From a virus: DNA of 33,380 bases. The translations under genes and the position numbers were made by a program. The notes under the pieces are model-generated. The model saw only the letters and a program-made list of their open reading frames with translations, was not told the origin of the DNA and did no database searches. Location of the stretch: IMG/VR virus record IMGVR_UViG_3300030389_000842, positions 1-33,380 of that record, one strand, 5' to 3'. Within the stretch, counting starts at the first letter, position 1, and the number at the start of each line of letters is the position of its first letter. Below are positions 1-33,012 of the stretch, one piece after another.

Positions 1-1305
1 ACTCAAGGTGCAATAGATGAGAATCAAAGTGGACTGACAGCAGGGCAGACATTCTTTGTGGATAAGAATGGTGCATTGCAATTAAGTACAACTGTTGCTG
101 CTTCAGTAGGAGCTTCTGTTAATGTAACATCTGGTGGTACACTTGGAGAACATCCTGCTGTAACATATGATAGTAACAGTAACAGATATGTTGCTGTTTT
201 TAGTGATGATGGTAATAGTGGATACGGCACTGCTGTAGTGGTTTCTGTTTCTGGAACTACCTGTAGTGTTGGCTCCTCTGTTGTATTCTCAGGTTCTTCA
301 AAAGGCACTGATATATCTATTGCATTTGATAGCAATGCTAACAAAGTTTTAATAGCATATAGAGATCAAGGTAACTCAAACTATGGCACTGCTGTTGTAG
401 GCACAGTAGATAACAGTGACAATAGTATATCTTTTGGAACACCTGCTGTATTTGAAAGTGCAACTGCACAATATATGGGAATGGATTTTGACTCTAATGC
501 TAATAAGTTTGTCATTGCATACAGAGATGGTGGTAATAGTGGACATGGAACTGCTGTTGTAGCAACAATATCTGGTACTGATGTTAGTTTTGGTACTCCT
601 GTTGTATTTAATGCTGCATCAAACTTTACAGATCCAACTCCAGTGACATTTGATAGTAGTAATAATAAAGTGCTTATTTCTTATAGAGACTCTGGAAATA
701 GTAATTACGGAACCTCTATTGTGGGAACTGTTAGCGGAACCGCTATTAGTTTTGGCACTGAGGCTGTGTTTGAAAGTGCAAACTCATCTGTTATAGGAAG
801 TGCTTTTGATAGTAGTAACAATAAAGTAGTTATAGGATATAGAGATGCAGGTAATAGTGGACATGGAACTGCTGTCGTAGCAACAATAAGTAGCACAAGT
901 GTTAGTTTTGGTACTCCCGTTGTATTTAATGCAGCAGGTATTCAGTATCCAGACCTTGCATTCAGCACTCAACTCAATAAAGTATTTATTGTTTATCAAG
1001 ATAATGAAACTGTAGTTAATGGCATTTTAGGAACTGTAAGCGATACATCTATTTCTTTTGGAAGTGAGATTTCTTTATCAGGGGCTTCATCAGGTAGTTC
1101 AGATTCTGGTGAGAGAACAGAATTAGGTGTAGCTTTTAATACAACTGATAATAACTTTGTTATTATTTCTATGCCTAAAGATGGATCTAGTGCAACTCAA
1201 GTATTTGCACATACAAGTGAAGAAGACTTATCAGGCTCACTATCAACAGATGCTGTAACAGCAGGAACAGCACTGTCTGCTACTAAGTTATTGGTGAAAG
1301 GGTAA
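1..1305 (+). CDS. Seven-repeat beta-propeller-like tail fibre protein (5' partial)
   Basis: The reading frame is open to the first base, so the N-terminus lies outside the window; a GTG at 58 is inside the frame and not a convincing start. After a short module (GLTAGQ..F/VDKNG) come seven repeats of about 50-58 residues with the pattern FDSxxNKVVIxYRDxGNSxxGTAVVGTVSGTxxSFGTPVVF, beginning near bases 157, 328, 487, 649, 808, 961 and 1135. The last is degenerate. Seven such beta-rich units suggest one seven-bladed propeller. The C-terminal VTAGTALSATKLLVKG matches the end of the next gene and is a common ending in marine phage fibre proteins. A role in receptor binding or virion decoration is inferred from position and composition. 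The gene ends two bases before the next ATG. Confidence 0.85.
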   Translation, partial: TQGAIDENQSGLTAGQTFFVDKNGALQLSTTVAASVGASVNVTSGGTLGEHPAVTYDSNSNRYVAVFSDDGNSGYGTAVVVSVSGTTCSVGSSVVFSGSSKGTDISIAFDSNANKVLIAYRDQGNSNYGTAVVGTVDNSDNSISFGTPAVFESATAQYMGMDFDSNANKFVIAYRDGGNSGHGTAVVATISGTDVSFGTPVVFNAASNFTDPTPVTFDSSNNKVLISYRDSGNSNYGTSIVGTVSGTAISFGTEAVFESANSSVIGSAFDSSNNKVVIGYRDAGNSGHGTAVVATISSTSVSFGTPVVFNAAGIQYPDLAFSTQLNKVFIVYQDNETVVNGILGTVSDTSISFGSEISLSGASSGSSDSGERTELGVAFNTTDNNFVIISMPKDGSSATQVFAHTSEEDLSGSLSTDAVTAGTALSATKLLVKG

Positions 1306-1936
1306 AGATGAGAACAGTACCACCAACAGAAAAAGGTAAATACAGAGCGATTGCATCTGGTGCTATAGCTAATGGTAAACCTGTTGTGGTTAATAGTGCA
1401 GGTACTGTTAGTGTGGTATCTGGAACAGCATTAACACTTGGTTCTGAAACAGAGTATACAAGTGACGCATCTAACTTTAATCGAGTAGCATTTGACAGTA
1501 ACAGCAATAGAATTGTTATTGCACATAAAAATGGAAGTAATAGTAATGGAACAGCTACTGTTGGTTCAGTAAGCGGTACGTCTATAACATTTGGAACTAC
1601 TGTTGCTTTCGATTCATCAGGTGAAGCAGAGTTTTATGGTATAGCTTTTGATTCAAACTCTAACAAAATAGTTATAGCTTATAGAGATACTACAGATAGC
1701 AACAAAGGTAAGGCAGTAGTTGGTACTGTAGATTCATCAGACAACAGTATAAGTTTTGGATCTGAAGCTACTTTTACAACTAACAATGCTGTATATATAG
1801 ATGCTTGTTTCGACAGTAGCACTAATAAAGTTGTTATCAGCTATACTGACTTTGGTAACAGTGGACATGGAACTGCTGTCGTAGCAACAGTAAGTGGTAC
1901 ATCTATCTCATTTGGTACTCCTGTTGTATTTAATAG
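532..1936 (+). repeat. DNA-level repeats inside and between the two propeller genes
   Basis: An 83-bp segment coding for GNSGHGTAVVATISGT..SFGTPVVFN occurs at 532-614 and 850-932 in the first gene and at 1854-1936 in the second. The first two copies differ at about nine positions; the third agrees best in its first half and its end. Other blades are far more diverged, so these segments look recently homogenised by recombination or gene conversion within and between genes. Confidence 0.8.
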
Positions 1937-2756
1937 CGCAAATAGCTCACATCCTCGTTGTGTTTATGATAGCAATGCAGAGAAAGTTGTTATAGCCTAT
2001 TATGATCTAGGAAATAGCTATAACCCTACTGGTATAGTAGGCACTGTATCAGGAACAGGTATATCTTTTGGTAGCGAAGCTACAACAGCATCTGTTACTG
2101 GTGGTGATTACATAGGGTTAGCATATGACAGCACTAATAACCGAATAGTATTTGCATATCACGATGACAGCAATAGTAGTTATGGAACAGCAGCAGTAGG
2201 CACTGTATCTGGAACAAGTATAAGTTTTGGAACCCCTGTAGTTTTTGAATCTGCTGACAACGCATATATTGATGCAACATTTGATGCCTCTACTGGAAAA
2301 GTAGTTATAGCATATAGAGATGTAGGTAATAGTAATTATGGTACATATGTTGTGGGAACAGTATCAGGTACATCAATATCTTTCGGAACACCTGCTACAT
2401 TTAATACTAACACAGAATACATAGGATTAGGTTATGACAGCAATGCAGAGCGAGTTGTTATATCATATAAAGATGCAGGTGATGGAGATGATGGCACTGT
2501 GAGAATATTACAGAATGCAGTACCATCAAACCTTACTACAGAAAACTACATTGGCATAGCTACAGGTGGATCATACGCAGATGGACAGAGTGTAACTGTA
2601 GATGTGATAGGCACAGTAAATAATGATCAGTCTAGCTTAACAGCAGGACAACAGTATTTTGTACAAGAAGATGGTACACTTGGATTAACAGCAGATAGTA
2701 CAAGTGTCGTAGCAGGTACTGCCATATCTGCAACAGAATTAATAGTAAAGGAATAA
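1308..2756 (+). CDS. Seven-repeat beta-propeller-like tail fibre protein, paralogue of the upstream gene
   Basis: This 482-residue protein starts two bases after the preceding stop, with GAAAGGG upstream of the ATG. The N-terminal module (IASGAIANGKPVVVNSAGTVSVV) and C-terminal module (IGIATGGSYADGQSVTV, LTAGQQYFVQEDGTLGLTAD, VVAGTAISATELIVKE) are of a type common in phage fibres. Between them are seven repeats starting near FDSNSNRIVIAH, FDSNSNKIVIAY, FDSSTNKVVISY, YDSNAEKVVIAY, YDSTNNRIVFAY, FDASTGKVVIAY and YDSNAERVVISY. They match the repeats of the upstream gene, with some stretches nearly identical in DNA. The complete head and tail modules show it is a full gene, not the broken end of its neighbour. 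A seven-bladed propeller and host-surface binding are inferences; no catalytic motif is visible. Confidence 0.88.
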   Translation: MRTVPPTEKGKYRAIASGAIANGKPVVVNSAGTVSVVSGTALTLGSETEYTSDASNFNRVAFDSNSNRIVIAHKNGSNSNGTATVGSVSGTSITFGTTVAFDSSGEAEFYGIAFDSNSNKIVIAYRDTTDSNKGKAVVGTVDSSDNSISFGSEATFTTNNAVYIDACFDSSTNKVVISYTDFGNSGHGTAVVATVSGTSISFGTPVVFNSANSSHPRCVYDSNAEKVVIAYYDLGNSYNPTGIVGTVSGTGISFGSEATTASVTGGDYIGLAYDSTNNRIVFAYHDDSNSSYGTAAVGTVSGTSISFGTPVVFESADNAYIDATFDASTGKVVIAYRDVGNSNYGTYVVGTVSGTSISFGTPATFNTNTEYIGLGYDSNAERVVISYKDAGDGDDGTVRILQNAVPSNLTTENYIGIATGGSYADGQSVTVDVIGTVNNDQSSLTAGQQYFVQEDGTLGLTADSTSVVAGTAISATELIVKE

Positions 2757-6796: not shown

Positions 6797-7304
6797 AGAA
6801 CCTATAAATATAGATGGCCCTATTCCCGGAGAAAGTCTAACAGCAGAGTATGGTGGCAGACCTTGGCAGAAACCACCACAGTACTCCACTGTAGATGAGG
6901 CTATGCAGTTTTACATGCAAAGAATGGAAAACGATAAGTTTAAGGATGACTTACTAGATGTCATTGATAATGGCATACCTCTGACTATCATAGCTAATGC
7001 ACTACAGCTAGGGTCTGTGATGGAAGGTTATCACAGTGTAGATGTAGGTATACTTGTGCTACCTGCATTGGTTGAAAGTTTAGCACTAATAGCTGAGAAC
7101 AATGGTGTTACATACAAAACAGGTACAGAAGAGCAGGATGAGGGTATGACAGATACACAGTTTGCCCTTGCAGAAAAAGATATGTTAAACGAAGTTCAGG
7201 ACAGTATGTTAGATACTAGTGAGTTTGACATGTACGCTAATGAGGGTGCAGAAGAAGAAGAGGTTGAAGAAGAACCTGTTGGATTAATGTCTAGGAGAAT
7301 ATAA
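6786..7304 (+). CDS. Conserved marine-phage virion-region protein
   Basis: The protein is about 172 residues from the ATG at 6786, which has AAGGA nine bases upstream; an in-frame ATG at 6765 would add seven residues. Near the N-terminus it reads GESLTAEYGGRPWQKPPQYS followed by VDEAMQFYMQRM. A 'PW..PP....DEA..F' pattern is something I associate with a structural-region protein of marine T4-like and other marine phages. The middle (DVIDNGIPLTIIANALQLGSV) is helical and hydrophobic; the C-terminus is very acidic (EGAEEEEVEEEP). Its stop and the next start overlap as TAATG. The exact virion role is unknown. Confidence 0.75.
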   Translation: MRAREPINIDGPIPGESLTAEYGGRPWQKPPQYSTVDEAMQFYMQRMENDKFKDDLLDVIDNGIPLTIIANALQLGSVMEGYHSVDVGILVLPALVESLALIAENNGVTYKTGTEEQDEGMTDTQFALAEKDMLNEVQDSMLDTSEFDMYANEGAEEEEVEEEPVGLMSRRI

Positions 7305-22397: not shown

Positions 22398-23153
22398 TCA
22401 ATTCATATTAAGTAATTCTATATCCCTATCATTCCCATACTTTAAGTCGTCCTTTAACATTAGAACTTTAACTTTGTCCACTACACCGTCTAACTCCCTT
22501 GCTAGCTGTAAGGCTTTGCTTACTGCATCTCTATCTAAAGCAACTAATGCTGCAGAGAATTGTGATAGGTACTGTTTTTGTTCGTTAGACATTGAAGTTC
22601 CCATTAACGCTACCCCTGTATGTCGGTCATCTCCAACGACAGCAGCACTTATACAATCCTCCACAACAACTGCGACCTTACCATAACCATATGTGTAAGG
22701 CAACCTGTTACTACCATATCTTTTCCATTTAGGCAAACGCTTTCCTATTGCTCTGCCTGTAGCGTCCACAGTTATACCCTCATGCACTACAGGAAACACA
22801 ACTCTGTGTTCACGTATATCGTACATCAAGCCATGTCTATTCGGTGACAGACCCCAACCAAATGCCCATGCCATTGCCTGTTCATACTCACTGCTCAAAG
22901 GCACTATGTTTACTGGCATACAAAAGTCTGTGATCGTATTGTCTTCAATCATATTTAATCTCCTATATATGGATTCAGCAGACATTCTCATTTTGTGTGT
23001 ACCTCTTACATTGCACGATGCTTTGTAACAGTTCCACAGCAGTTGTCCATTGTTGTTGGTCACTGTAAATGTTTTACGTCCTTTACACTCAGGACAATCC
23101 ATCCTAATTGTTTCAGACTCCTGTATGTCTAAGTTTTGGATGAAGCTATACAT
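22398..23153 (-). CDS. DNA primase (zinc ribbon plus TOPRIM)
   Basis: This 251-residue protein has an N-terminal zinc ribbon CPEC (C20, C23) and CYKASC (C42, C47). A TOPRIM domain follows with VVVEDCISAAVVG (E165, D166), ALDRDA (D207, D209) and LKDDLKYG (D235, D236). This is the minimal layout of a T7 gp4 N-terminal-type primase that makes RNA primers on the lagging strand. Between the two it reads REHRVVFPVVHEG and ATGRAIGKRLPKW, as in phage primases. The start (AGGAG eight bases upstream) overlaps the endonuclease VII gene by 25 bases, and the stop abuts the helicase gene. Confidence 0.93.
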   Translation of the reverse strand: MYSFIQNLDIQESETIRMDCPECKGRKTFTVTNNNGQLLWNCYKASCNVRGTHKMRMSAESIYRRLNMIEDNTITDFCMPVNIVPLSSEYEQAMAWAFGWGLSPNRHGLMYDIREHRVVFPVVHEGITVDATGRAIGKRLPKWKRYGSNRLPYTYGYGKVAVVVEDCISAAVVGDDRHTGVALMGTSMSNEQKQYLSQFSAALVALDRDAVSKALQLARELDGVVDKVKVLMLKDDLKYGNDRDIELLNMN

Positions 23154-23569
23154 TTCTGATGCTCCTGTAAATACTTTATCGCTCTTTTAAAAGTATCAAT
23201 ATCGTTGTTAAAATTACCTAAGTCTCTATTACATTTTCCACAAAGCCAACCTCTAAACGTACCAGTCTCGTGACAGTGATCTAACACCCATGATTTTTTA
23301 CTAGCACCTTCGGCTGCTTCTTCTTTATTACGTAAACATATAGGACATACGTAGTCATCATCAGGCATACCGTAAATGCTACGTAACTTCTCTACCTCTT
23401 TCTGAAGTTTAGCTGTGCACTTTTTACATTCGTTTCTAACTTTGTATAACTTGTCTGGTGACGAGGGAAAAAAGGACACAGGTAAGTGCTCTTTACACTT
23501 GGTGCATGTTTTTCCTCTACCTCCCTCTAGTTTAATTAGATCACTAGGAGTAAATAAATCTTTTTGCAT
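23129..23569 (-). CDS. Recombination endonuclease VII-like nuclease
   Basis: This 146-residue protein has a C-terminal endonuclease VII domain (T4 gp49 family, His-Me/HNH fold). It shows YVCPICLRNK, then VLDHCHETGTFRGWLCGKCN and a helical LGNFNNDIDTFKRAIKYL. The four Cys of the two CxxC pairs bind the structural zinc, and DHCHETG carries the catalytic residues. An extra N-terminal CTKC/CKKC pair (about residues 22-51) forms a second putative zinc finger. It resolves branched DNA before packaging or nicks DNA during replication. AAGGAGGAG lies before the ATG, and it sits between integrase and primase genes. Confidence 0.92.
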   Translation of the reverse strand: MQKDLFTPSDLIKLEGGRGKTCTKCKEHLPVSFFPSSPDKLYKVRNECKKCTAKLQKEVEKLRSIYGMPDDDYVCPICLRNKEEAAEGASKKSWVLDHCHETGTFRGWLCGKCNRDLGNFNNDIDTFKRAIKYLQEHQKCIASSKT

Positions 23570-23570
23570 A

Positions 23571-24452
23571 TTACTCCTCCTTAAATTGTTGCCTCGCAGT
23601 CAGCGCACTGTTGGCACTAAGGAAAGTGTTCTTTATGTAGGGTTTAACTGACTGTGGATTAGCGTGTCCTGTAACAGACATAATCTGTGGTAGTGGTACA
23701 CCTGCCTCTACCATCTCAGTTGTGCCAGTTCTACGTAAGTCCATAAGTCTAAGCTCTTCAGGTAACCCTGCCTGTCGCATAATCCTCCTGCCTATTTTAG
23801 ATAACCTCTCCATAGAGAATGGTATGTACTCTCCATCTCTAGGAGTCGGCATGGGAACGACATACTTTTGAAAGTCAAAGTCATCTCTCTGTTCTTTTAA
23901 CATATCCAACAGAGATTCAGATATAGGTAAGTGCACCACTGCACCTCTCTTAGATTGTATCAGGTTCAGACGGCTGTTATCAAAGTCTATGCACTGCCAC
24001 TCAAGCATACGCATGTCACCTACACGTTGACACCACTCGTATGCCATCTGTACTATCAGTCCTACATTACGGTAAACAAAGTCACCATAGGCTACATTAA
24101 GAAACTTACGTACCTGATCCTCTGTCCACACTACATTACGTGATGCAGGTGTTAGCTTACGTACCAAAGCAAAGGGATTATTCTTGACATACTCCATGTC
24201 TAGCCCATACCTATATGCCCTGCCAGACACAACAGCTACATGATTAGCTAACTGTATGCCACGCTTAACCCATTCTTCGTAGGCTATCTTTGCATCCTTG
24301 CCTGTTACACTGTTGGCTGTCTTCTCTCCAAATCTATCTGTCAACACTTTTAAGAACCTTGTATAGTCTACTTTAGTTTTATCACGTAAGCGATTAAACT
24401 CAGGTGATTGCACGTAAAGGTTGACTAATCGTTTCACAGATATTGGCCTCAT
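23571..24452 (-). CDS. int: Tyrosine-family site-specific integrase
   Basis: This 293-residue protein has an N-terminal SAM-like arm domain (about 1-100) and a catalytic domain. The active-site set is R143 (CQRVGDMR), K168 (QSKRG), R240 (LMDLRRTGTTE), H263 (SVTGHANPQS) and the nucleophile Y272 (KPYIKNTF). The usual HxxR is MDLR here, so Met237 stands where the first His is normally found. The enzyme would integrate phage DNA into the host chromosome. No excisionase or repressor is recognisable nearby and I could not identify an attP site. It overlaps the 155-residue gene as ATGA and leads into the nuclease and replisome genes. Confidence 0.92.
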   Translation of the reverse strand: MRPISVKRLVNLYVQSPEFNRLRDKTKVDYTRFLKVLTDRFGEKTANSVTGKDAKIAYEEWVKRGIQLANHVAVVSGRAYRYGLDMEYVKNNPFALVRKLTPASRNVVWTEDQVRKFLNVAYGDFVYRNVGLIVQMAYEWCQRVGDMRMLEWQCIDFDNSRLNLIQSKRGAVVHLPISESLLDMLKEQRDDFDFQKYVVPMPTPRDGEYIPFSMERLSKIGRRIMRQAGLPEELRLMDLRRTGTTEMVEAGVPLPQIMSVTGHANPQSVKPYIKNTFLSANSALTARQQFKEE

Positions 24453-26914: not shown

Positions 26915-27181
26915 TCAAAAATCTGTACACCTACCGTTGTGTTGCCAATCCCCATGTGTAGTAGGGTCAGGCCCATCGTACCCACCGTACTCCTGCTTGG
27001 GTGCTCTACCTCTAGCACGTTGCAGCTGGTCATCTATACTCTCCTCTTTGCTACGCACTGCTGGTCTTTTAAACAGAGTGAGTGTGACCACACCATCATT
27101 GTCTTCCTTGTACGTGCCAGCCCAATTGACAGGCTTGTTGTACCACCAATTTAGTAAGTCCTCTATGTCAGTGTCTACCAT
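26915..27181 (-). CDS. Small hypothetical protein (88 aa)
   Basis: This 88-residue protein has an N-terminal aromatic segment IEDLLNWWYNKPVNWAGTYK, a beta-like VVTLTLFKRP, then a polar tail (RARGRAPKQEYGGYDGPD, HGDWQHNGRC). AAGGAG stands 11 bases before the ATG, and the start overlaps the preceding 49-residue gene by 14 bases. Function unknown; it directly precedes the hydrolase gene by 12 bases. Confidence 0.72.
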   Translation of the reverse strand: MVDTDIEDLLNWWYNKPVNWAGTYKEDNDGVVTLTLFKRPAVRSKEESIDDQLQRARGRAPKQEYGGYDGPDPTTHGDWQHNGRCTDF

Positions 27182-27779: not shown

Positions 27780-27796
27780 GGTGGGACTGTCCCACC
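27780..27796. repeat. Palindromic operator-like element, copy 1
   Basis: GGTGGGACTGTCCCACC is a perfect palindrome with 8-bp arms around one central base. It sits between the stop of the 91-residue gene and the promoter of the next operon. It could also fold as a 7-bp hairpin with a 3-base loop, but no T-tract follows on either strand, so an operator is more likely than a terminator. Confidence 0.8.
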
Positions 27797-30906: not shown

Positions 30907-30996
30907 TTATAAATCTCCTCGTTGAAAACAATATAAACCAATCACTACTATGACAAAGCATAGTGCGACAATCGTTAGTTCGTCAAGTGTTGTCAT
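30907..30996 (-). CDS. 29-aa single-span membrane micro-protein
   Basis: This 29-codon frame reads MTTLDELTIVALCFVIVVIG and ends LYCFQRGDL, one clear membrane helix with a short charged tail. Its ATG overlaps the stop of the 52-residue gene as ATGA, and its end contains the GAGGAG site of the gp88-like gene, which starts one base after its stop. Coupling on both sides and the hydrophobic content suggest a real small membrane protein. There is no separate ribosome site. Confidence 0.55.
   Translation of the reverse strand: MTTLDELTIVALCFVIVVIGLYCFQRGDL
30957..30986 (-). promoter_or_regulatory. Possible promoter downstream of palindrome copy 2
   Basis: On the minus strand TTGACG (30986-30981), an 18-bp spacer and TATGCT (30962-30957) give a moderate sigma70-like match, 11 bp downstream of the copy-2 palindrome. 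It overlaps the 29-residue gene. Its resemblance to the arrangement at copy 4 is the main support; the -10 is weak. Confidence 0.35.
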
Positions 30997-31151
30997 CGTG
31001 GGACAGTCCCACTTGTGTCAATGGCTTGTATGGCTGCCCATGTCCTGTCGATCTCTTCTAGCTTTTTACGTCTAGTGTCCTGCTCTGTCTTGGCTTGCAT
31101 GGCATTGTGAAGCATAACAAAGTCTTTAAAGAATTTATCAACTTGATTCAT
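30993..31151 (-). CDS. Small charged helical protein (52 aa)
   Basis: This 52-codon gene reads MNQVDKFFKDFVMLHNAMQA, then KTEQDTRRKKLEEIDRTWAA and a tail AIDTSGTVPR. Both ends overlap neighbours as ATGA. The tail SGTVP is encoded by the copy-2 palindrome, so the operator-like element lies within coding sequence. The body is a charged helix. Function unknown. Confidence 0.68.
   Translation of the reverse strand: MNQVDKFFKDFVMLHNAMQAKTEQDTRRKKLEEIDRTWAAIQAIDTSGTVPR
30998..31012. repeat. Palindromic operator-like element, copy 2
   Basis: GTGGGACAGTCCCAC is a perfect palindrome with 7-bp arms and one central base. It lies inside the last codons of the 52-residue gene and 11 bp upstream of TTGACG on the minus strand. 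Confidence 0.8.
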
Positions 31152-31527: not shown

Positions 31528-31830
31528 TTAGTCACCTCCTCTCGCTACTTCGGCAAAGTTATCGTCCACCCTTTGCTTTATGTCATCAATGAAACTTTCG
31601 TAGTCTTTAATTATTTGTCTTTGTGTGACAAGCGTCTTACAAAACAGACGATCTCGTTTCAAATACTTGTCGGTTATGACGTCAATGTATGTATCAACAA
31701 ACGCCATGAACTCTGCTGTAAGGCTGGCAAAATTTTCGACGTCACTTGCAAGGTAAGCAGTTCTACCTTTTTCCTCAAACTGCTTCTTGCGTTTCACGTA
31801 GTCGTCGTGAACTAAAACGTGTTTTGTCAT
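31528..31830 (-). CDS. Hypothetical helical protein (100 aa)
   Basis: This 100-residue protein is mostly helical and charged (DYVKRKKQFEEKGRTAYLAS, LTAEFMAFVDTYIDVITDKY, IIKDYESFIDDIKQRVDDNF). The ATG overlaps the upstream stop as ATGA, and the stop is directly followed by the next ATG. I recognise no family. The start of the operon and early promoters nearby suggest early expression. Confidence 0.75.
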   Translation of the reverse strand: MTKHVLVHDDYVKRKKQFEEKGRTAYLASDVENFASLTAEFMAFVDTYIDVITDKYLKRDRLFCKTLVTQRQIIKDYESFIDDIKQRVDDNFAEVARGGD

Positions 31831-32045
31831 TTAGTACTCGTCCTTCCTTGTTGTTGTCTGATTATGGATAGCATTGCATTTAGCTTCGTGTCAACTCGTC
31901 TAGGTTTATGCGACACTCGTCTAAACATCTCGTCAAATTGTCGGTTTGTCATTAGCGACATGTCGTCAACAACTCGTCCAACTTGTTTTGGATACCAACT
32001 CGACAATTCGTCACTCGATTTTTCTACAAATTTTTTGAATTTCAT
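31827..32045 (-). CDS. Small basic early protein (72 aa)
   Basis: I prefer the ATG at 32045 (AAAGG nine bases upstream), giving MKFKKFVEKSSDELSSWYPK. The frame extends to a TTG at 32096 through the copy-3 palindrome, but that part is more likely leader. The product ends in a basic region (FRRVSHKPRRVDTKLNAMLS). It is the first gene of the operon that runs to about 30174. Codon choice (many TCG, CGA and GAC) differs from genes further left. Function unknown. Confidence 0.7.
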   Translation of the reverse strand: MKFKKFVEKSSDELSSWYPKQVGRVVDDMSLMTNRQFDEMFRRVSHKPRRVDTKLNAMLSIIRQQQGRTSTK

Positions 32046-32068
32046 AAAGCAAAACCTTTCGATAATCA

Positions 32069-32083
32069 GTGGGACAGTCCCAC
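32069..32083. repeat. Palindromic operator-like element, copy 3
   Basis: GTGGGACAGTCCCAC is a perfect palindrome in the leader between the promoter at 32123-32152 and the ATG at 32045. Unlike the other copies it lies downstream of the promoter, in the likely transcribed leader, where a bound protein could block elongation or initiation. Confidence 0.8.
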
Positions 32084-32122
32084 CTAAGATGATCAATTGC
32101 TAATCAATTTCTGACTATCACT

Positions 32123-32152
32123 ATAGTAGCTTACAGCATGGGATACAGTCAA
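32123..32152 (-). promoter_or_regulatory. Probable promoter of the early operon
   Basis: On the minus strand TTGACT (32152-32147), an 18-bp spacer and TACTAT (32128-32123) stand upstream of the 72-residue first gene. A 14-bp inverted repeat ACAGTC-AA-GACTGT (32145-32158) overlaps the -35; its GACTGT half resembles the core of the GTGGGACTGTCCCAC palindrome. The -10 is imperfect. Confidence 0.45.
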
Positions 32153-32262: not shown

Positions 32263-32294
32263 AAAAAAAGGGTGGCACTCGAAAGTACCACCCT
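32263..32294 (-). terminator. Intrinsic terminator with UUCG tetraloop
   Basis: On the minus strand an 11-bp stem (AGGGTGGTACT paired with AGTGCCACCCT, one G-U pair) closes a UUCG tetraloop. It is followed directly by seven T residues. It lies 22 bases after the stop of the 194-residue gene. This is the clearest terminator in the window. Confidence 0.9.
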
Positions 32295-32315
32295 AAGTTA
32301 AAAAGGTTTAAAGTA

Positions 32316-32900
32316 TTACTTTGTACCTGTTTTCTTTTCTTTTTCCTCACTAGCTAACGGTGGGACGTTTAACCATGTTTCGTTAACATCGGGATCAATT
32401 TCATAACCTAGTAGTTGAGCACATGCTTTCACTACATCACCGAATTCATATTTCTTTACGTTGATATGCTCAACGATATGATCAATTAGCTTCTCTTCGG
32501 ATTGGTAGGTTTTAGGTGTTGAATTATTCTTATTCAAGAAACGAGTAATGTATTTCCTCAAAGCACCCATAGTCGGGACAGTGAAATCGGATTTTACATT
32601 TTCACCCTTCTTATTGAGATACCAATATCCCTTTTCTTCTTTCAACTTCTTGGCCGTTTCCCAATTTTCAGCGACGTACTTAAAATTTCTTCGCTCTTCT
32701 TTATCGAAATCGGGTAGCGTTTTAGCAAAGTTGAAATCGGGATCTTGTAGAAGCTTGTGAGCTTGTTCCATAAAAGCATACCCTGCTTTATCCATCCCGA
32801 AGTAGAAGAGTTGAAAATCGTTTTTCGTATCCTTCAACTTCTCAGTAACAGGAATTGATAGTTCAACTAGATAGTCTTTATCAGATTTTTTAACAGTCAT
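32316..32900 (-). CDS. Isolated early protein of unknown function (194 aa)
   Basis: This 194-residue, Lys/Glu-rich protein has no recognised motif. Segments include DFQLFYFGMDKAGYAFMEQA, KEEKGYWYLNKKGENVKSDF, then VPTMGALRKYITRFLNKNNS and YEFGDVVKACAQLLGYEIDP, and it ends in a charged tail EEKEKKTGTK. The middle LRKYITRFLN could be a DNA-contacting helix, but that is speculative. It is the only gene here with its own consensus-like promoter, an operator-like palindrome in front and a strong terminator behind. That is how a regulator or a first-expressed host-takeover protein is often arranged. The start ATG follows a weak AGGT site. Confidence 0.82.
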   Translation of the reverse strand: MTVKKSDKDYLVELSIPVTEKLKDTKNDFQLFYFGMDKAGYAFMEQAHKLLQDPDFNFAKTLPDFDKEERRNFKYVAENWETAKKLKEEKGYWYLNKKGENVKSDFTVPTMGALRKYITRFLNKNNSTPKTYQSEEKLIDHIVEHINVKKYEFGDVVKACAQLLGYEIDPDVNETWLNVPPLASEEKEKKTGTK

Positions 32901-32955
32901 TTTTGTTTACCTCATTGGTTAAAAACCCACGCTCCAACGGCGTGGAATAGCTACT

Positions 32956-32984
32956 GTTATATAGAAGTGCTTATATGCTGTCAA
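32956..32984 (-). promoter_or_regulatory. Strong sigma70-like early promoter
   Basis: On the minus strand TTGACA (32984-32979), a 17-bp spacer and TATAAC (32961-32956) give a near-consensus promoter 55 bases upstream of the 194-residue gene. The copy-4 palindrome lies 11 bp upstream of the -35. Host RNA polymerase should read it directly after infection; no phage RNA polymerase is encoded in the window. Confidence 0.7.
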
Positions 32985-32995
32985 ACATTTTGATA

Positions 32996-33012
32996 GGTGG
33001 GACTGTCCCACC
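32996..33012. repeat. Palindromic operator-like element, copy 4
   Basis: GGTGGGACTGTCCCACC is a perfect 17-bp palindrome, identical to copy 1, located 11 bp upstream of the -35 of the 194-residue gene's promoter. A half-site GTGGGACA follows at 33033-33040. Confidence 0.82.

Follow-up and report, generated by a model that had tools for sequence, protein, structure and literature searches.

What does a gene do that occupies a transcription unit of its own, beside a palindrome, at the head of a phage's early arm? Gene 1 of the window (the whole 33,380-base virus record analysed here) raises this question, which has two parts: whether its 194-aa protein binds the palindrome, and what such binding would achieve. 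The window belongs to an HMO-2011-type marine phage. Its DNA polymerase carries the DnaJ insert typical of these phages and is 66.5% identical to the polymerase of Puniceispirillum phage HMO-2011, and the window also encodes a ribonucleotide reductase, a primase, a helicase and a tyrosine integrase (23571..24452, minus strand; PHROG phrog_1, E=1.7e-34), which indicates temperate potential. HMO-2011-type phages are reported to be dominant and widespread in the ocean; many carry an integrase, which is common in the subgroup of the window, and integration has been shown experimentally for CRP-3, a member of another subgroup (PMC9038755).

Three further features lie elsewhere in the record. Next to the integrase gene, the endonuclease VII gene (23129-23569, minus strand) is replaced by a different ORF in the related record G001, with flanks that are 90-96% identical. 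An 88-aa protein (26915-27181, minus strand) has a C-terminus that matches DUF1674 (E 6.8e-10), the SDHAF4/succinate dehydrogenase assembly factor family, which is unusual for a phage. Some ten diverged repeats of ~156-162 bp run across two adjacent ORFs at 164-2363 (plus strand), which probably encode a tail repeat protein.

An insulated unit at the head of the early arm

The close relatives at this locus are three IMG/VR contigs, L003, L032 and L065, the last of which lies inside the 55.7-kb record G001. Since L032 continues past the right end of the window into divergently transcribed lysis and late genes, gene 1 is the first gene of the early arm, and it adjoins a conserved divergent control region of ~500 bp. 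Along most of the early arm, where it is alignable, G001 is 83-97% identical to the window.

The promoter, upstream palindrome, 194-aa gene and UUCG terminator listed in the first-pass annotation were all found where it had placed them. The gene, proposed here to encode a palindrome-binding regulator, occupies 32316..32900 on the minus strand; it starts with ATG, has counterparts in L003 and L065 and an N-terminal one in L032, and is linked to the family discussed below. The promoter, TTGACA-17-TATAAC (32956..32984, minus strand), is conserved in the same three relatives, and the pattern TTGACA-N17-TATAAC matches twice in the window against 0.05 matches per shuffle. It had been called strong, which is not proven because the last base of its -10 is C instead of T. 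Nor is it unique to gene 1, since the divergent late operon has an equal promoter in the relatives L032, L003 and G001. Between promoter and gene, ahead of the ribosome-binding site, lies a leader hairpin (32926..32946, minus strand) with two compensatory pair changes between allele classes. HMO-2011 and loci L086-L088 carry a long hairpin (GGGATAACCCCTT...AAGGGGATTATCCC) ahead of gene 1, whose sequence varies while the pairing, judged by eye, is kept, and the leader hairpin of the window may correspond to it.

Gene 1 ends in an intrinsic terminator (32269..32294, minus strand) with an 11-bp stem, a UUCG loop and a T-run, the top-scoring terminator in the 20 kb scanned. In three phages its stem pairs at 100% with three compensatory changes and a constant UUCG loop. 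Rfam matches to the element (sbrA, L20 leader) fell below the cut-off and were set aside as terminator mimicry. The insulation is real, because the next gene begins 271 bp downstream and has a promoter-like sequence of its own (TTGACT-18-TACTAT, 32123..32152, minus strand) that is kept in two relatives. This second promoter starts the main early operon, the first gene of which (31827..32045, minus strand) encodes a 72-aa protein that is 93-94% conserved. Such insulation had been taken to suggest a regulator. Among loci of the wider first-gene family described below, the next ORF begins -28 to 159 bp after gene 1 (n=76), and a terminator-like hairpin follows gene 1 in only 2 of the 32 loci scanned. 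The insulated form is thus specific to the small phage group of the window, and for this reason insulation alone is weak evidence for the function of the gene.

Searches with the gene and its product gave little guidance. The protein has no match to a Pfam or PHROG family and no XRE helix-turn-helix recognisable with either; a nucleotide search of phages found nothing, and protein searches found no credible match in phages and none in bacterial genomes. In the PDB a designed PPR repeat gave a short sequence match (E 0.0013), which was rejected as a repeat artefact. Confidence in the structure model is low (pLDDT 65), and fold searches with models of this protein and of the family returned nothing below E 0.001. 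When the next gene was used as a query for further gene 1 alleles, only contigs already known were recovered. An allele of gene 1 is present in all four related contigs. That of L003 is 81% identical to the window and that of L065 39%, and since the last ~20 codons are exactly common to L003 and L065 a recombination point lies inside the gene. Gene 1 is thus fast-evolving.

Palindromes of the early region

The window contains four copies of the palindrome with the identical core TGGGACWGTCCCA, every one of them in the early region (8 strand-hits, with an expectation of 0.04). L003 and G001 have the palindrome at the same four places; across all of these both half-sites are invariant, and only the centre base flips, being either A or T. 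Site A (GGTGGGACAGTCCCACC, 32996..33012) has its centre ~55 bp upstream of the estimated transcription start of gene 1. It is not on the promoter, and ends 13 bp upstream of the -35 (35 bp in two relatives). Site B (32068..32084) lies beyond the second promoter, ~40 bp downstream from its -10. Site C (30997..31013) is at the end of a small ORF and abuts the ATG of the next, a 29-aa membrane-like ORF (MTTLDELTIVALCFVIVVIGLYCFQRGDL; 30907-30996, minus strand). Site D (27780..27796) is intergenic, ~30 bp upstream of the extended -10 TGGTATAAT.

A 22-bp element, TTTCGGCTGCAGTAGCTTAAAC, accompanies palindromes A and B in two relatives (L003:717 and 1627; G001:25089 and 26019); the window has it at neither site. 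Viral contigs other than relatives of the window contain the palindrome in one copy each, and because they do so singly we regard these occurrences as chance. No paper containing the 14-bp palindrome turned up in a full-text literature search.

A first-gene family and its palindromes

Further evidence comes from proteins at the same map position in other phages. HMO-2011 phage1322_74, CRP-345 gp01 and CRP-1 gp01 are helical hypothetical proteins of ~200 aa, and from these three isolates the family could be extended to ~75 distinct IMG/VR loci. Nearly every family locus with enough sequence has a repeated palindrome of its own. The sites are usually upstream of gene 1 (mostly at -190 to -310), often inside it, and in several copies downstream. 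The embedded palindrome, which encodes S-N/D-V-G in a predicted disordered linker, is frequent but not universal (it is absent, for example, from L127, L128 and L085), and the window gene contains none. Family palindromes are of the types GTCCAAYRTTGGAC, GTCCGAYRTCGGAC, CCCCAAYRTTGGGG and CCCCGATGTCGGGG, with AGTCCGACAGCGGACT in the HMO-2011 subgroup, and most genomes have a single type in all their copies. HMO-2011 has AGTCCGACAGCGGACT four times together with a different helix, and in the CCCC-type palindromes of L098, L142 and L145 the outer two bases also switch, from GT to CC. Among 11 isolates examined, gene and repeated palindrome are both present in HMO-2011, CRP-1 and CRP-345, and both are missing from the other eight (CRP-2, -3, -207, -212, -235, -603, -738 and HTVC033P). 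A one-mismatch copy, GTCCAAGGTTGGAC, lies within the integrase gene of CRP-345 (7079-7092) and of CRP-1 (6868-6881). The study of HMO-2011-type phages in PMC9038755 does not refer to any repressor, promoter or palindrome.

A repressor and its operators would be expected to change together. We assigned palindrome type, GTCCAA or GTCCGA, with in-gene sites left out of the scoring, and tested every protein column (L162 numbering) for covariation with it. Of the 43 GTCCAA-type proteins 39 have T in column 113, and all 14 GTCCGA-type proteins have S there (z 25.6). Column 117 is K in all GTCCGA-type proteins. At column 120 the GTCCAA type nearly always has K or R, and 13 of the 14 GTCCGA-type proteins have N, A or S. 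All three columns fall in one helix, family helix 112-125. Together S113 and K117 predict the palindrome type without exception, with none of 69 loci discordant, and the few genomes with mixed half-sites (L119, L120, L129, L144 and others) have S113 with R117. The best column among control early proteins reached a z of 3.7.

In a tree of residues 1-105, with the helix thus left out, GTCCGA arose 12 times independently, and its scatter is nearly as wide as that of shuffled labels. The natural sister proteins L167 and L168 are 90% identical and have opposite palindrome types (GTCCAACGTTGGAC and GTCCGATGTCGGAC). Linkage to the operator inside the gene is a concern, as G-type genes are somewhat more alike at third positions around the helix. 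It is not the cause, because the sister pair L127/L128 shows the same helix change and lacks an embedded site. Column 130 covaries with palindrome type as well, trivially, because the embedded site encodes it, and a covariation match in a second reading frame proved to be the antisense of gene 1 itself. Since the helix residues covary with palindrome type across 12 switches and 0/69 discordant loci while the controls are flat, the first-gene family very probably binds its palindrome through helix 112-125. Its members are probably previously unrecognised regulators. Activation or partition would yield the same covariation as repression.

Placement and role of the window gene

Whether this applies to the window depends on whether its protein belongs to the family. 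Similarity is below the reach of standard methods: hhalign gave a probability of 3-5%, hmmsearch was not significant, and a whole-length glocal scan of the window protein against the family was within noise. In contrast, three conserved family blocks, placed colinearly on the window-group proteins, scored above all 232 unrelated decoys, and column shuffles never reached that score in 1000 trials (p<0.001, for blocks picked after viewing the alignment). As the blocks were chosen after inspection, we regard this test as supportive and not conclusive. The window model, at its low confidence, and the family model have the same helix order, a break at Asn79/Asn94 and an SLxAL-type helix. Codons 110-124 of the window gene (TMGALRKYITRFLNK; 32529..32573, minus strand) are the putative counterpart of the family specificity helix, based on model helix H111-124 and an ungapped alignment to family helix 112-125. 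Shared with the family, too, are the position as first gene of the early arm beside a divergent control region and a repeated palindrome both upstream and downstream of gene 1. The window palindrome, GT-GG-GA-CWG-TC-CC-AC, resembles GT-CC-GA-YR-TC-GG-AC by eye only. Taken together, it is fairly likely that the window protein is a highly diverged family member, and only if it is would the window count as a fourth carrier with its own palindrome.

We hold with somewhat more belief than doubt that the product of gene 1 is a regulator that recognises specific DNA, namely the four palindromes, and that it is most likely a repressor (for immunity or early shut-off). Both that the window protein binds TGGGACWGTCCCA and that binding leads to repression we infer. 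The first-pass suggestion of a dose-critical regulator that possibly binds the palindrome has accordingly become the best-supported reading, indirectly, through the covariation of its relatives and its apparent family membership. The other suggestion, a first host-takeover protein, found no support.

Host takeover is part of a broader explanation that we consider unlikely, in which some other protein, of the phage or of the host, uses the palindromes, and gene 1 is an accessory gene (a moron) that serves counter-defence or host takeover. It would fit the gene's own promoter and terminator, its lack of a family match, and the exchange of alleles of 39% identity, with an in-gene breakpoint common to L003 and L065, in an early arm that is otherwise mostly 83-97% identical. 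It also counts against the main reading that the same palindrome coexists with both of these alleles, whose predicted contact helices differ (TMGALRKYI and SMEGLEKML). However, the helix of the positional relatives covaries with their palindromes, and in 12 genomes neither the gene nor a repeated palindrome is seen without the other, the window being taken as a carrier. A recent insertion between genes that are adjacent in relatives was not borne out either, as an allele occurs in all four related contigs.

As a regulator, gene 1 could in principle bind the palindromes as an early activator or timing factor, and sites A and D are at activator-like distances from the promoters downstream of them, 13 bp before the -35 and ~30 bp before the extended -10. 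Also in its favour, the 22-bp shift of site A between relatives is close to two helical turns. We nevertheless consider activation quite improbable, because site B lies downstream of its promoter, no promoter can be clearly assigned to site C, and in the wider family most sites fall within transcribed early sequence, including one within gene 1. Least probable of all is that the palindromes are parS-type partition sites or RNA hairpins bound by a ParB-like or RNA-binding protein: they are perfect, multi-copy and each foldable as a 6-7 bp RNA hairpin, but there is no ParA gene or ParB match among the proteins scanned, an integrase is present, the gene 1 transcript does not include site A, which precedes the promoter, and the centre base flips freely, as expected of DNA recognised by a dimer.

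A dimeric regulator on dispersed early-region palindromes would be expected to repress transcription or to form a roadblock. Under the repressor reading, the gene 1 protein would bind the four TGGGACWGTCCCA sites as a dimer via helix 110-124. It would repress at site B by blocking transcription just past the second promoter, act as a roadblock within the operon at sites C and D, and tune its own promoter from site A. The promoter and terminator of gene 1 would allow a lysogen to make the protein without reading into the lytic early operon.

In behaviour, the nearest known analogue is the immunity repressor of L5, which, like that of Bxb1, acts with stoperators in cluster A mycobacteriophages (PMC6550527, PMC9283540). 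In both cases there would be one phage protein with many short sites across the early transcribed region, an integrase, and one site consensus per genome that diverges with the protein, which is seen here in the family relatives. The stoperators are asymmetric, number 20-30 per genome and have one orientation to transcription, whereas the sites here are symmetric and number 4-8 per genome. The L5 repressor is a monomer with two DNA-binding domains, to which the gene 1 protein has no detectable sequence or fold relation.

Repressors of the lambda CI type are dimers that act on palindromic operators and are made from their own transcription unit. Palindromic operators, a probable dimer and a repressor gene with its own unit would be shared. 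Lambda operators, however, are clustered on two divergent promoters, whereas the sites here are dispersed over kilobases, gene 1 is transcribed in the direction of the early operon, and there is no XRE helix-turn-helix match. KorA and KorB of RK2 are global regulators at palindromic operators dispersed through a mobile genome, an arrangement similar to the one proposed here, but no ParB/KorB family match was found here. The HMO-2011 first-gene family itself is alike in map position, size (~200 aa), helix order, the three colinear blocks and the possession of its own repeated palindrome. It differs in that its sequence similarity to the window protein is below standard detection, and in that the window gene has a terminator, no internal operator and the palindrome GTGGGACWGTCCCAC.

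A wider proposal, about which we are slightly more doubtful than convinced, is that the immunity groups of HMO-2011-type phages are set by a new family of DNA-binding repressors, in which about three residues of one helix have repeatedly switched the specificity for dispersed palindromic operators, one of them often embedded in the repressor gene, and of which the window gene would be an extreme, insulated branch. Such a regulator family, with its natural specificity variants, would allow immunity groups to be marked and would offer a ready way to test for temperateness in HMO-2011-type phages.
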